From: Oscillospiraceae bacterium
GTDB lineage: Bacteria; Bacillota; Clostridia; Oscillospirales; Ruminococcaceae
Assembly: GCA_021199795.1 (NCBI GenBank)
Contig: JAJQHJ010000038.1
Coordinates: 1-64,000, forward strand
DNA length: 64,000 nucleotides
Reading direction: 5' to 3'
Notes under the pieces: generated by a model
Database searches by the model: none
The model's input: the letters and a program-made list of their open reading frames with translations, nothing else
What the model was told of the DNA's origin: nothing
Position numbers and translations under genes: made by a program
Part shown: positions 3,877-37,551 of the stretch, in pieces
How positions within the stretch are numbered: the first letter of the stretch is position 1
Layout: the number at the start of each line of letters is the position of its first letter

Positions 3877-4142
3877 TGTACAAAGTCAGAGAAAATACTA
3901 TGATTTCGTGCAAATTCAGAAACGGTCATTTCTAAATTTGCTCGAAAGGATCGGAAATACGCTCCTTTCGATGATTTTTAAAAACGAAGTTTTGCTGAAC
4001 ATCCCCACAATTCCTTGTCCTATTTTTCTCAAAATATTGTGTACCTTATTTCCCACAAATGACTGGCTATTTCTCCGCAGTGACGGTAATATGGTGATAC
4101 TCAAAGGGACAGAAGTCCCGTGGTGAAAGGGGATAGCGAGCA

Positions 4143-4400
4143 ATGTTTTATTATTTGGCAATGTACTCATTTAGCATAAGCAAGCCCGTGACTGGACCAT
4201 TTGCAACTAGAGATGAAGCGTGGACGGCGATGAGGAAGAATGTTGAGAACGAGCAAGCGGAATCAGAAGCACTTGGGTTGGAGACCGCTACCACATTTGA
4301 TGAGGATAGCGGAGAGATCATACTTACCGAGAGTAGCGAAATTGAAGACAAATCAACTACGTGGATTTTGTTTGAGATAAAGGAAAGGAGCAAGGCATGA
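4143..4400 (+). CDS. Small hypothetical protein (85 aa)
   Basis: Not recognised. It begins MFYYLAMYSFSISKPVTGPF and is mostly polar and acidic, with a DEAW helix and a Thr/Glu-rich end; a small soluble protein is likely. GAAAGGGGATAGCGAGCA before the ATG is an adequate ribosome binding site. Its TGA overlaps the next ATG (ATGA at 4397-4400), so the two genes are translationally coupled. Confidence 0.6.
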   Translation: MFYYLAMYSFSISKPVTGPFATRDEAWTAMRKNVENEQAESEALGLETATTFDEDSGEIILTESSEIEDKSTTWILFEIKERSKA

Positions 4401-18141: not shown

Positions 18142-18218
18142 TGGTCTGAGTGACGGGACTTGAACCCACGGCCTCTACCACCCCAAGGTAGCGCTCTACC
18201 AAGCTGAGCTACACCCAG
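18142..18218 (-). tRNA. tRNA-Pro (anticodon GGG)
   Basis: On the minus strand the 77-nt cloverleaf reads CTGGGTG/CACTCAG (acceptor stem with one G-U), GCTC/GAGC D-stem, CTACC/GGTAG anticodon stem with loop TTGGGGT (anticodon GGG), GTGGG/CCCGT T-stem around TTCAAGT, discriminator A, and an encoded CCA. It is isolated from other tRNAs. Confidence 0.93.
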
Positions 18219-34990: not shown

Positions 34991-34992
34991 GG

Positions 34993-35190
34993 GGGCTTCC
35001 GCCTTGTCGCCACATGACGTATAAAACCCGCACGAAGCAGGTGGGTATCAGCCCGAGCGTTTCGTGCTCCCTTCGTCCTCAGCACTTGAACAGGGAAGCT
35101 GCCGAGGCAGCGACCGTGCGTACCTTGGGAGGTCTGCATCCCCGCGTCCGGAGCGAGATTCCCGAATTATATGTGTTGGATTATAAAAAC
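34993..35190. repeat. GC-rich structured intergenic segment
   Basis: About 200 bases much richer in GC than their surroundings, with several perfect short stems: GCACGAA/TTCGTGC, GCTGCC/GGCAGC, ACCT/AGGT and ACCC/GGGT pairs. A 61-codon frame (35014-35199) runs through it but has no ribosome binding site or recognisable fold. It may be a dispersed intergenic repeat or RNA element; only one copy is in this window. Confidence 0.3.
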
Positions 35191-35257
35191 CATGCTTAAT
35201 CGAGCAAGGCAGAATGAATTTTGATTTCAGAGAGTAGTATAACTCAGATGAGCTATA

Positions 35258-35614
35258 TTATTCCTCATGATGATGACAGCAGCAATCTTCGTCATCGCAG
35301 TCGCAGTCGTCATCGTCGCAGTCGCACTCTTCGTCCCAGTTGTCGAATCTGTCGATGAAGATCTGTCCGAGTCTGTCATACTCCTCTTCGCTCTCAATGG
35401 AAACAAGAGTGATTTCGTCGCCAGTGTCCTCAACTTTAAGAATGATGAACTCGCCGTTGTCATTGACCAGGTCTTCAGGATTCTCGTAGTAGGGAGCAAG
35501 TGCATAGTAGGTGTTGTCACCCTCATCATAAATGTCTATAAGCTCATAATTGCCAACGTTGCCCTCTTCGTCCTCAAGGGTATAGATTTCAGGCATATAT
35601 TCGTTTTCATCCAT
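35258..35614 (-). CDS. DUF1292-family protein with Asp/Cys/His-rich tail
   Basis: 118 aa from ATG 35614 (AAAGGAG, 7-8 base spacing). Residues ~10-85 have the DUF1292 pattern (YTLEDEEGNVGNYELIDIYD, YYALAPY, EFIILKVED). Many family members are ~90 aa; here about 27 residues are added, ending in DCDDDDCDCDDEDCCCHHHE, which could bind metal. The stop is at 35258. A perfect promoter lies at 35649-35677. Confidence 0.85.
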   Translation of the reverse strand: MDENEYMPEIYTLEDEEGNVGNYELIDIYDEGDNTYYALAPYYENPEDLVNDNGEFIILKVEDTGDEITLVSIESEEEYDRLGQIFIDRFDNWDEECDCDDDDCDCDDEDCCCHHHEE

Positions 35615-35648
35615 TTGAGTTATCTCCTTTATAAATAGGTATGCTTCT

Positions 35649-35677
35649 ATTATAGTGAAAACAATCCGTTTTGTCAA
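35649..35677 (-). promoter_or_regulatory. Consensus promoter of the DUF1292 gene
   Basis: Minus strand: TTGACA (35677-35672), 17 bases, TATAAT (35654-35649). Confidence 0.9.
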
Positions 35678-35779
35678 TGGTACTTTTGTGTAGAAACCGC
35701 TCAAATTCATATTCAAAAGATAACACTTGGCATTCATAAAAATTCCACAAAAAAATTTGAAAAAAGTTTGAAAAACCTA

Positions 35780-35808
35780 TTGACATTTCAATCCGGGTGT
35801 GTTATAAT
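35780..35808 (+). promoter_or_regulatory. Consensus promoter of the large structured RNA
   Basis: TTGACA (35780-35785), 17 bases, TATAAT (35803-35808). Transcription should start near 35815. No ribosome binding site or protein frame follows. Confidence 0.9.
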
Positions 35809-36566
35809 ACAATCACAGAAGAGAGATAAATAAAAAAAGTCACTGAAAACTAAAAGGGAGAGGGTTCCGATGAAGAGGTAAGAAAGCCTCAGGATAACTT
35901 CGACAGCGAAGACTTGCCGCATAGTTAGCAAGCCGCTACAGCATAAAAGCTGGAAAAGAACTGAGGAGCTATCAGAAACCAATGACAAGCAAATAACACC
36001 GCGTCTTAAAAGCAAAGGAGCGATTGTTATGAAAGTATTAGCAAAGGCAAGAAACGGAACTTGCGAATAAAATAAACTGAAAGAGGTGAGTCCAGCAATC
36101 TATGCATAATTCTACCGACTCACAGAATCTGAGACGAAGCTAATCTTTAAACTTGACACATTACGAGATGTTCTCTTAGGTACGAAACCAATTTCTCAAG
36201 ATAAAAGATATAAGCTATGAAATTGATTCTGTAACAGCAAGAAAATATCTTGCCCAACATAAATCAAGAAAATCCGAATCAAAAGGTTTAAAGCCCGAAA
36301 GGATTTGATGCACCATGAAACTGTTTCACAAGAAAGAAATCAAAATCTAGCAGTGAGAGGGTGAGTCCAACAAAGACTTTAAATTGGCTGTAGTCGCATC
36401 AGTGATACATAGTATCTGAAATGATACCAAGCTTTGACGATAACATAGTTCATACGTAAGGTTAATTTTAAGATCAGACCGTGATGAAGTAAGCTAAGTT
36501 AAAACCTGATACCAAGCGACAACGCGTCGAAGATACGTCGTAGATGCACAGCATATGGTGATAAAT

Positions 36567-36575
36567 TGATATAAT
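36567..36575 (+). promoter_or_regulatory. Possible extended -10 promoter for the second RNA
   Basis: TGATATAAT (36567-36575) is a full extended -10 element. No good -35 is present. It could start a separate transcript just before the hairpin at 36578. Confidence 0.35.
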
Positions 36576-36577
36576 GA

Positions 36578-36602
36578 GGGAGCGGTTATCCGCTCCCTTT
36601 TT
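36578..36602 (+). terminator. Terminator of the large RNA
   Basis: GGGAGCGG and CCGCTCCC pair perfectly around TTAT, followed by five T. Confidence 0.92.
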
Positions 36603-36603
36603 G

Positions 36604-36760
36604 GTGTGAAGAAATCTGCACACATAGGACGACTCCCGAATAATATAGACTAACGGCAGGACGGCTCACAAGTCAGTTTTAAAAGGGGAGAGAAGAGCCG
36701 AACCCCTGCCGATTAATATAACAGCCGCCGGAAATGGCGGCTTTTCGGGTTCGGCAATTT
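36604..36760 (+). ncRNA. Second structured RNA with mutually exclusive pairings (possibly raiA-motif-like)
   Basis: CGGCAG (36654) pairs with CTGCCG (36706) and, inside, CGGCTC (36662) with GAGCCG (36695). A terminator-like hairpin AGCCGCC/GGCGGCT (36723-36742) follows. GCCGAACCC (36697-36705) is also perfectly complementary to GGGTTCGGC (36747-36755), so the two folds compete. The conserved-looking GGGGAGAGAAGAGCCGAACC core reminds me of the raiA-motif RNA of Firmicutes; that identity is recollection, not a search result. Confidence 0.5.
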
Positions 36761-36830
36761 CAACGAGAGTGCCCTAAAAATAGTCGGTAATATTTTGCTT
36801 TTTAGTAACCGTTTTGTAACCAAAGATTGT

Positions 36831-36860
36831 TTGACAACTGGAGTGCAGTTGCTGTATAAT
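36831..36860 (+). promoter_or_regulatory. rpe promoter with inverted repeat in its spacer
   Basis: TTGACA (36831-36836), 18 bases, TATAAT (36855-36860). CAACTGGAGTGCAGTTG (36835-36851), a 6-5-6 inverted repeat, lies within the spacer, a possible operator. Confidence 0.75.
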
Positions 36861-36897
36861 GATGGTGGATAGATAGGTAGTATTTCGGAGGGAAGAA

Positions 36898-37551
36898 ATG
36901 GAAACTAAGATTTCAGCATCAATTCTTTCGGCAGACTTCGGTCATCTTTCGGACGAGCTCTCAAGGGCGGAAAAATCCGGTTGTGACATGATACATTTCG
37001 ACGTCATGGACGGTCACTTTGTCCCGAATATCAGCTACGGAGTCCCGGTTCTCAAATCGATCAGGAAATATTCAGGGCTCCCGTTCGATGTTCATCTGAT
37101 GATAAGCGATCCGAATTCATATATAGAGCCATTCGCCAATGCCGGTGCAGACGGAATCACATTCCACCTCGAAGCCACAGCCAATCCGGTCGGAATTATA
37201 GACAAGATCCATTCTCTCGGGCTCAGGGCAGGCGTTTCAGTCAAGCCTAAAACCGACGTGAGCTTACTTTATCCTCTAGTCGGAATCATGGACATGGCAC
37301 TTATAATGACAGTTGAACCCGGCTTCGGCGGTCAGGGCTTCATCCCGGAAACTCTTGGAAAGATAAAAGCACTGAGAGAATACGCTAAAGCCGCTAAAGC
37401 CGCCAAAGCCTTAGATATCGAGGTCGACGGCGGAATCTCCGACATAACAGCTCCACTCGTAAGAGAAGCGGGAGCCAATGTCCTGGTTTCCGGATCATAC
37501 CTCTTCAAAGCCACAGACATGGCTTATAATTGCAAGCTTCTAAAAGATTAA
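36898..37551 (+). CDS. rpe: Ribulose-phosphate 3-epimerase
   Basis: 217 aa TIM barrel interconverting ribulose-5-P and xylulose-5-P. ASILSADFGHL, HFDVMDGHFVPNISYG, DVHLMI, TVEPGFGGQGFIP and EVDGGIS carry the metal and catalytic residues. An Ala-Lys repeat (AKAAKAAKA, about residues 162-170) looks like a small in-frame expansion. GGAGGGAAGAA precedes the ATG. It is followed by the Rnf-like genes on the same strand. Confidence 0.96.
   Translation: METKISASILSADFGHLSDELSRAEKSGCDMIHFDVMDGHFVPNISYGVPVLKSIRKYSGLPFDVHLMISDPNSYIEPFANAGADGITFHLEATANPVGIIDKIHSLGLRAGVSVKPKTDVSLLYPLVGIMDMALIMTVEPGFGGQGFIPETLGKIKALREYAKAAKAAKALDIEVDGGISDITAPLVREAGANVLVSGSYLFKATDMAYNCKLLKD

Follow-up and report, generated by a model that had tools for sequence, protein, structure and literature searches.

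A predicted RNA at a DUF1292/6S RNA locus carries an array of very short, Shine-Dalgarno-led reading frames

To our knowledge, two-codon minigenes are known only as single cis elements. In the part of PMC8708949 used here, such minigenes (axe-txe mg2 and the ler leader) stand singly before a gene and consist of a Shine-Dalgarno (SD) sequence, an AUG, one sense codon and a stop codon. According to the same part of that source, ribosomes need not dissociate after a minigene before reinitiating if its SD is strong, ORFs of two codons are the most toxic, UAA increases toxicity, and the authors' own two-codon minigene, acting in cis, did not inhibit growth. The RNA described here shares with them the order of SD, AUG, codon and stop, the strong SD and the frequent UAA; unlike them, it has many units in a stand-alone transcript. 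Like ROOL, GOLLD and OLE, as presented in the part of PMC12286853 considered, it is a large bacterial RNA of unknown function, whereas its start-site arrays, its chromosomal locus by 6S RNA and the lack of a covariance-model match set it apart. Peptide-coding or dual-function small RNAs, in the portion of PMC5521070 drawn on here, likewise have short ORFs in apparently non-coding RNA, but the ORFs of the present RNAs, of 1–27 codons, form arrays whose register to a GUGAGUCC-like element is nearly constant. Attenuator leader peptides are similar in having short ORFs with a strong SD, and differ in that the array RNA is stand-alone, with no conserved downstream gene. With 6S RNA (RF00013), from which it is usually separated by the DUF1292 gene, it shares a proposed decoy logic; 6S RNA mimics a promoter for RNA polymerase, whereas the array RNA has ribosome-start sites and no RF00013 match. 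Our search of the open-access literature returned single minigenes and peptide-coding small RNAs and no description of stand-alone minimal-ORF arrays; most of the subscription literature was outside its scope.

The RNA was predicted in a window of 64,000 nucleotides, the whole stretch of DNA analyzed, and its features are summarized in Table 1. The earlier note had proposed an independent transcript of ~790 nt, driven by a perfect TTGACA-17-TATAAT promoter, ending at a strong terminator and containing two duplicated motifs. The promoter and a terminator hairpin with a T-run are present, GGTGAGTCC(A) and TGATACCAAGC both occur twice, and the transcription signals support the proposed transcript. 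In the relatives G002 and G005 (genomes and loci are cited by our G and L numbers), the promoter was recognized only with a relaxed −10 box. In the homologous loci that we read, the stretch upstream of the promoter was likewise A/T-rich. No clear terminator was found in G018, and several T-runs were short. The region had also been described as having no protein frame. This holds for long frames, as the sole listed frame of ≥ 60 amino acids that overlaps the RNA has 75 amino acids and lies on the minus strand, but the wording is misleading because the RNA carries several short SD-led ORFs. Downstream of the terminator, a second intergenic stretch (36603–36775) precedes an rpe-like gene; it contains a GC hairpin and T-run at about 36722–36746 and may possibly encode another small RNA.

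Table 1. Features of the predicted RNA and its neighborhood, in window coordinates.
Feature	Position	Strand	Remarks
6S RNA	34992..35218	−	RF00013, 41.7 bits (gathering 46.4), E 3.5e-07; beyond the DUF1292 gene
DUF1292 (PF06949) gene	35258..35737	−	Divergent neighbor of the RNA
A/T-tract stretch resembling an UP element	35740..35779	+	Upstream of the promoter; putative function, from sequence
Sigma-A type promoter, TTGACA-17-TATAAT	35780..35808	+	TG before −10; strict pattern in 28/30 genomes (window and 29 relatives)
Whole predicted RNA, ~790 nt	35815..36602	+	Span from promoter to terminator
Start site 1, GGGAGAGGGTTCCG + ATG AAG AGG TAA (MKR-stop)	35856..35881	+	ORF 35870-35881
Mini-ORF MKVLAKARNGTCE-stop of type II unit	36029..36070	+	SD AAAGGAG upstream
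First GGTGAGTCC site	36085..36109	+	15 nt after the MKVLAKARNGTCE stop
Candidate GTG mini-ORF VSPAIYA-stop	36086-36109	+	In first GGTGAGTCC site; GTG start putative
Nearly invariant block with GAGATGTTCTC	36151..36180	+	AUG lost in window
Mini-ORF MKLFHKKEIKI-stop of type II unit	36315..36350	+	SD AAAGGATTTGATG upstream
Second GGTGAGTCC site	36360..36393	+	10 nt after the MKLFHKKEIKI stop
Candidate GTG mini-ORF VSPTKTLNWL-stop	36361-36393	+	In second GGTGAGTCC site; GTG start putative
3'-domain helix, 5' strand GCUGUAGUCGCAUCAG	36387..36402	+	Both-side changes at 4 pairs
3'-domain helix, 3' strands	36506..36552	+	CUGAU 36506-36510, GCGAC 36516-36520, ACAGC 36548-36552
Intrinsic terminator AGGGAGCGG-TTAT-CCGCTCCCT + T-run	36577..36602	+	Stem pairs kept in 11/11 closest RNAs

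The ORFs of the window RNA have 3 to 13 codons, and this copy has no strict two-codon unit. Start site 1, with an SD duplex of −12.6 kcal/mol, is invariant in all 11 closest RNAs, and the same 11 RNAs keep the 13-codon frame of MKVLAKARNGTCE together with its 15-nt spacer to GGTGAGTCC. The second pair of elements is less uniform: the stop of the MKLFHKKEIKI-type ORF is in the window's place in 5 of the 11 and two codons later in 6, and the spacer to GGTGAGTCC measures 10 nt in 5 RNAs but 4 nt in the other 6. Judged by eye, the block that has lost its AUG in the window appears to correspond to the start site of ORFs reading MNVNKHKIL-stop or MW..-stop in relatives. Both window copies of GGTGAGTCC are type II sites as defined below. 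It had been suggested that the repeats are loops that pair between copies; this finds no support. GGTGAGTCC forms the center of a ribosome-start unit that recurs family-wide, with nearly constant distances to AUGs and stops. One of the strands of a helix is overlapped by the second TGATACC copy.

We located the RNA in the window and in 29 of 30 same-genus genomes, with predicted lengths of 391–2504 nt, some of the ends being set by eye; the named relatives are mostly metagenome-assembled genomes. In the 30th, G007, the RNA was not found and the DUF1292 match was only sub-threshold. A motif pattern searched over 84,980 species returned 26 stretches, all 26 of them in the same-genus genomes. One start-site pattern gave no match in viral contigs, and the 3 and 2 short matches in phage and plasmid records (E 0.2–0.8) were taken as chance. 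The shorter RNAs of the genus carry MKR-stop or MKRxxxx-stop, MKLARSWI-stop, VSPAY..-stop, MNVNKHKIL-stop and MNRxxxx-stop, and all of these elements except VSPAY have an ATG behind a strong SD stretch. To count such sites, we required an ATG, 2–20 codons and an SD duplex of ≤ −9 kcal/mol with the 16S tail GGAUCACCUCCUUUCU, as seen in G002 and G020. The 30 RNAs (23.4 kb) contained 111 sites, four of them in the window RNA, compared with one on the antisense strand and a mean of 14.85 (range 5–21) in 20 dinucleotide shuffles. The excess was small in G012 and G013 (4 sites each, vs 2.85 and 2.9 in shuffles) and in G022 and G026 (1 site each, little above their own shuffles). SD strength alone is not special, because 24 of 48 long window frames also reach −10 or lower at some start; TGANTCC precedes a start in 3 of the 48. 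Tandem duplication raises the number of units in G015, G028 and L162, with the first two ORFs present three times in G015 and twice in G028. In several genomes with short RNAs, the last mini-ORF stop lies in the loop of a hairpin ACCGC-NTA-GCGG (A2 columns ~374–388), and the G010 version, ACCTT-TAAT-AAGGT, hints at covariation.

The DUF1292 gene (match G000:C37:35342-35569, 48.2 bits, over the cut-off) is the divergent neighbor in 28 of 30 genus genomes. The exceptions are G024, which starts at a contig end, and G021, which has no DUF1292 in the 1361 bases examined. In G021 (L022 / L045), the RNA adjoins a ruvX-like gene, and this is the only same-genus locus with enough flank that has neither a DUF1292 nor a 6S match. 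Beyond DUF1292, 6S RNA was found at 15 of 17 same-genus loci at E ≤ 1, with 13 over the gathering score, and at 15 of 18 and 9 of 14 family loci at the gathering score (L106 is in both sets). Directly downstream of the array RNA of L122, on the same strand, there is an RNase P RNA (1–320, minus), forming an RNA-gene cluster.

We surveyed the family through the DUF1292 gene, which was found in 109 of 119 family genomes. The survey covered 90 loci from 90 other genera (30 + 60); the remaining 19 DUF1292 genomes were G000 and G023 of the genus set and 17 from further genera. Some of the 90 loci stop early at contig ends (L140 and L149 have < 1 kb), and the end of DUF1292 was placed by a rough composition score. 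Beyond DUF1292, TGA[AGT]TCC occurred 124 times on the RNA strand and 22 times on the opposite strand (TGAGTCC, 88 vs 3; TGATTCC, 25 vs 12; TGAATCC, 11 vs 7). The unbulged TGATCC, which lacks the extra base and complements the 16S tail exactly, was not enriched (33 vs 27), and because of this, longer uninterrupted pairing with the 16S tail was rejected as an explanation of GUGANUCC. By eye, a possible 3-bp GGA..UCC hairpin in the motif was inconsistent among the variants. An ATG follows 67 of the 124 sites, in 66 cases exactly 1 nt after TCC. None of these 66 motif-linked ORFs exceeds 27 codons, 37 end in TAA, 28 have two codons (MK-stop, MY-stop, MA-stop and others), and 2 are AUG-stop; two-codon ORFs follow 140 of 2310 other ATGs (Fisher 2e-16). 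The 28 ORFs have the minigene form of SD, AUG, one sense codon and stop.

Of 79 GTGAGTCC sites, 41 have an ATG and 38 do not, and 27 of these 38 have an SD-led ORF ending 0–30 nt upstream; for random places in these loci, the figure was 95 of 760. A GTG frame of ≤ 10 codons opens in 27 of the 38, but control frames are also often short (21/38 and 14/37). We defined two strict units: type I is TGA[AGT]TCC-N-ATG followed by no more than two codons, and type II is an ORF of 6–16 codons (ATG or GTG start, SD not required) whose stop precedes GTGA[GT]TCC by an allowed spacer of 4–19 nt. At the DUF1292 loci, there were 40 type I and 28 type II units on the RNA strand and none of either on the opposite strand. 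Strict units occur at 34 of the 90 loci, each from another genus, vs 0 of 90 for the opposite strand, and no strict unit was found at the other 56. A looser count (≥ 2 TGA[AGT]TCC sites) gave 34 of 90 loci vs 5. Among the 30 type II units listed, the spacer was 9–10 nt in 17 and 14–16 nt in 9, and 15 of the ORFs end in Asn-, Lys- or Asp-Ile-stop.

We propose, with about even confidence, that the locus is an independently transcribed array of ribosome-entry units that may occupy ribosomes, rather than a ROOL-like structured RNA. One kind of unit is a strong SD, a start codon and a very short frame, often fMet-X-stop in other genera; the other is an ORF of 6–16 codons with its stop mostly 9–10 or 14–16 nt before a GUGAGUCC-like element. 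The DNA itself establishes this anatomy: the transcription signals, the arrays and their excess over chance and over the other strand, the preferred spacings, the conserved frames of several ORFs, and the presence at one locus in many genera. The function is inferred from it. On this proposal, the RNA would be abundant, and ribosomes would start at every unit, reach its stop almost immediately and then engage again; the RNA would therefore hold or idle initiating ribosomes and perhaps release short peptidyl-tRNAs. Translation might in this way be lowered or buffered, as the neighboring 6S RNA occupies RNA polymerase. Judging from the sequence, a strong-looking promoter feeding many start sites suggests an RNA that occupies ribosomes, and two-codon ORFs are too short to yield a folded product. 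Somewhat more tentatively, at a little under even confidence, these RNAs may constitute a new class: a stand-alone array of minimal frames that is the ribosome counterpart of 6S RNA, acts through start-stop cycles and has its strength set by the number of units. The array model does not explain the role of the AUG-less GUGAGUCC-like and GTGAGTCC elements. If it is correct, bacteria manage ribosomes with an RNA of dead-end start sites beside an RNA that manages RNA polymerase, RNAs labeled non-coding for want of a long frame can be translated throughout, and two-codon minigenes gain a use in arrays.

Readings in which the RNA itself does the work were weighed against this proposal. The size of the RNA and its own promoter and terminator fit the suggestion, made in the earlier note, that it is a member or relative of a large ornate class, possibly ROOL. 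However, none of these classes matched at any threshold tried: when the window was compared with 4227 Rfam families, only tRNA reached the gathering score, and the ten matches over 35700–36900 at E ≤ 10 were all sub-threshold, with none to ROOL, GOLLD, OLE or raiA. The best of them lies on the terminator and is to Termite-leu, at 25.6 bits (gathering 51) and E 0.0054. The window scan gave no covariance-model match to OLE, HEARO, raiA or GOLLD, whose models were presumably among the families scanned. ROOL (RF03087, gathering 99.1 bits) was not found in the RNA's own genome, a search that was positive in no control genome and is weak alone, and Rfam scans of the loci returned only 6S, RNase P, tRNA, sub-threshold or chance matches. 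Anatomy and context also differ. ROOL and GOLLD sit in phages and prophages, often near tRNAs (PMC12286853, in the part considered), whereas the single tRNA of the window is at 18142–18218 and the RNA is at a chromosomal DUF1292/6S locus. We consider it scarcely credible that the RNA is a member or relative of ROOL, GOLLD, OLE, HEARO or raiA RNA. It is also rather improbable, to a much lesser degree, that it is some other structured or protein-binding RNA, in which the regions between units do the work and the mini-ORFs serve only to bring in ribosomes that protect or remodel the RNA, for stability or to avoid Rho. Its single-strand fold is better than that of shuffles (z −3.65; none of the 20 equaled it), long invariant blocks without obvious ORFs are conserved in the 11 closest RNAs, and the best-supported helix, in the 3' domain, has compensatory changes in G020, G029 and G009; stabilization by ribosome binding at a strong SD is mentioned in the part of PMC8708949 used. 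Covariation in homologues, which had been named as a check, was found by RNAalifold at 8 of 153 pairs with changes on both sides among the 11 closest RNAs; pairs of this kind exist, but their support is thin. The closed multi-branch loop reported at 35887–35966 was not confirmed; from 35893 on, it lies inside a stretch (A1 columns 79–177) that is missing in 5 of the 11 (G014, G030, G006, G025 and G009). Moreover, the RNA itself has no Rfam match, and by eye, the inter-unit regions look unrelated among genera while the units persist. Part of the structure seems to be real, but conservation does not appear to center on it.

The RNA could also be a polycistronic messenger for functional nanopeptides, with 7–13-residue peptides acting in the cell and two-codon ORFs as spacers or remnants; this reading, which also takes in the longer first peptide of many other genera, is unlikely. 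MKLARSWI-stop occurs in 16 copies in 13 short-RNA genomes, including duplicates within G028, and in this list, picked by peptide, all variant codons are synonymous (CTC/CTG/CTT, AGA/AGG, TCC/TCT/TCA/TCG and ATT/ATC). A nucleotide-based list of 18 rows, which adds the diverged MKLARSGT.. and MKVARSGI, gave 8 synonymous and 7 non-synonymous change types, with 1:12 and 2:12 in the other frames. In three species of the genus g87, frames of 17, 12 and 15 codons are free of indels and have both synonymous and non-synonymous changes; all GTGAGTCC elements and the MY-stop, MR-stop and MT-stop units are kept as well, with indels in other stretches. MKLARSWI-stop and the Asn/Lys-Ile-stop ends, which with Asp-Ile-stop recur across genera, suggest that peptides matter. 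On the other hand, when distant rows were included, MNVNKHKIL-stop had a ratio of synonymous to non-synonymous change types of 7:20 (other frames, 3:22 and 3:23), ORF1 and ORF5 encode peptides that are free to vary beyond residue 3, and the motif ORFs include the 28 two-codon and 2 AUG-stop forms. Short ORFs upstream of a terminator are also the usual anatomy of an attenuator. Here, however, the terminator ends the unit, and no conserved regulated gene was found in the same transcript: the gene after the RNA is an rpe-like frame in the window and close relatives and other frames in more distant ones, and in the window it has its own promoter-like site at 36831. A leader-peptide attenuator of the downstream gene is accordingly very improbable.

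The distribution of the ribosome-start arrays beyond the family was analyzed with the strict pattern RGTGAGTCCVATGNNNTAR, which was found in 14 of 295 genomes of the order, 6 of the 14 being in the window's family; a reversed-pattern control was found in 1 genome. True-looking cases in two other families are L171, which has a promoter, an array and a terminator, and L173, L174 and L176. The latter three have a promoter-to-terminator RNA of ~350 nt (~1430–1860) with one MY-stop unit near its 5' end, and the frame upstream of it in L173 and L174 is one that we take to be rlmH-like. L175 was a further match to the same pattern. In a class sample of 341 genomes (326 outside the order), the one outside match, L189, had no array and reads as chance. 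By eye, L040 (in a presumably FtsW-like frame), L041, L042, L043, L172, L177 and L178 were coding or lone sites and not arrays. In L039 (G031:C19, 630–760), a promoter-like site followed by ATGAAAGAGGTGAGACCAGCAGGTTAG precedes a secreted-protein-like frame, and this may be a lone leader mini-ORF. The array RNA of L103 (minus strand, ~2800–2890) contains a short tandem repeat, TAGCTTTATGG. Finally, the start-site array is present twice in L120 (G034), at oriented positions 1132–1185 and 4093–4146, ~3 kb apart, and the G034 genome has two DUF1292 matches as well.
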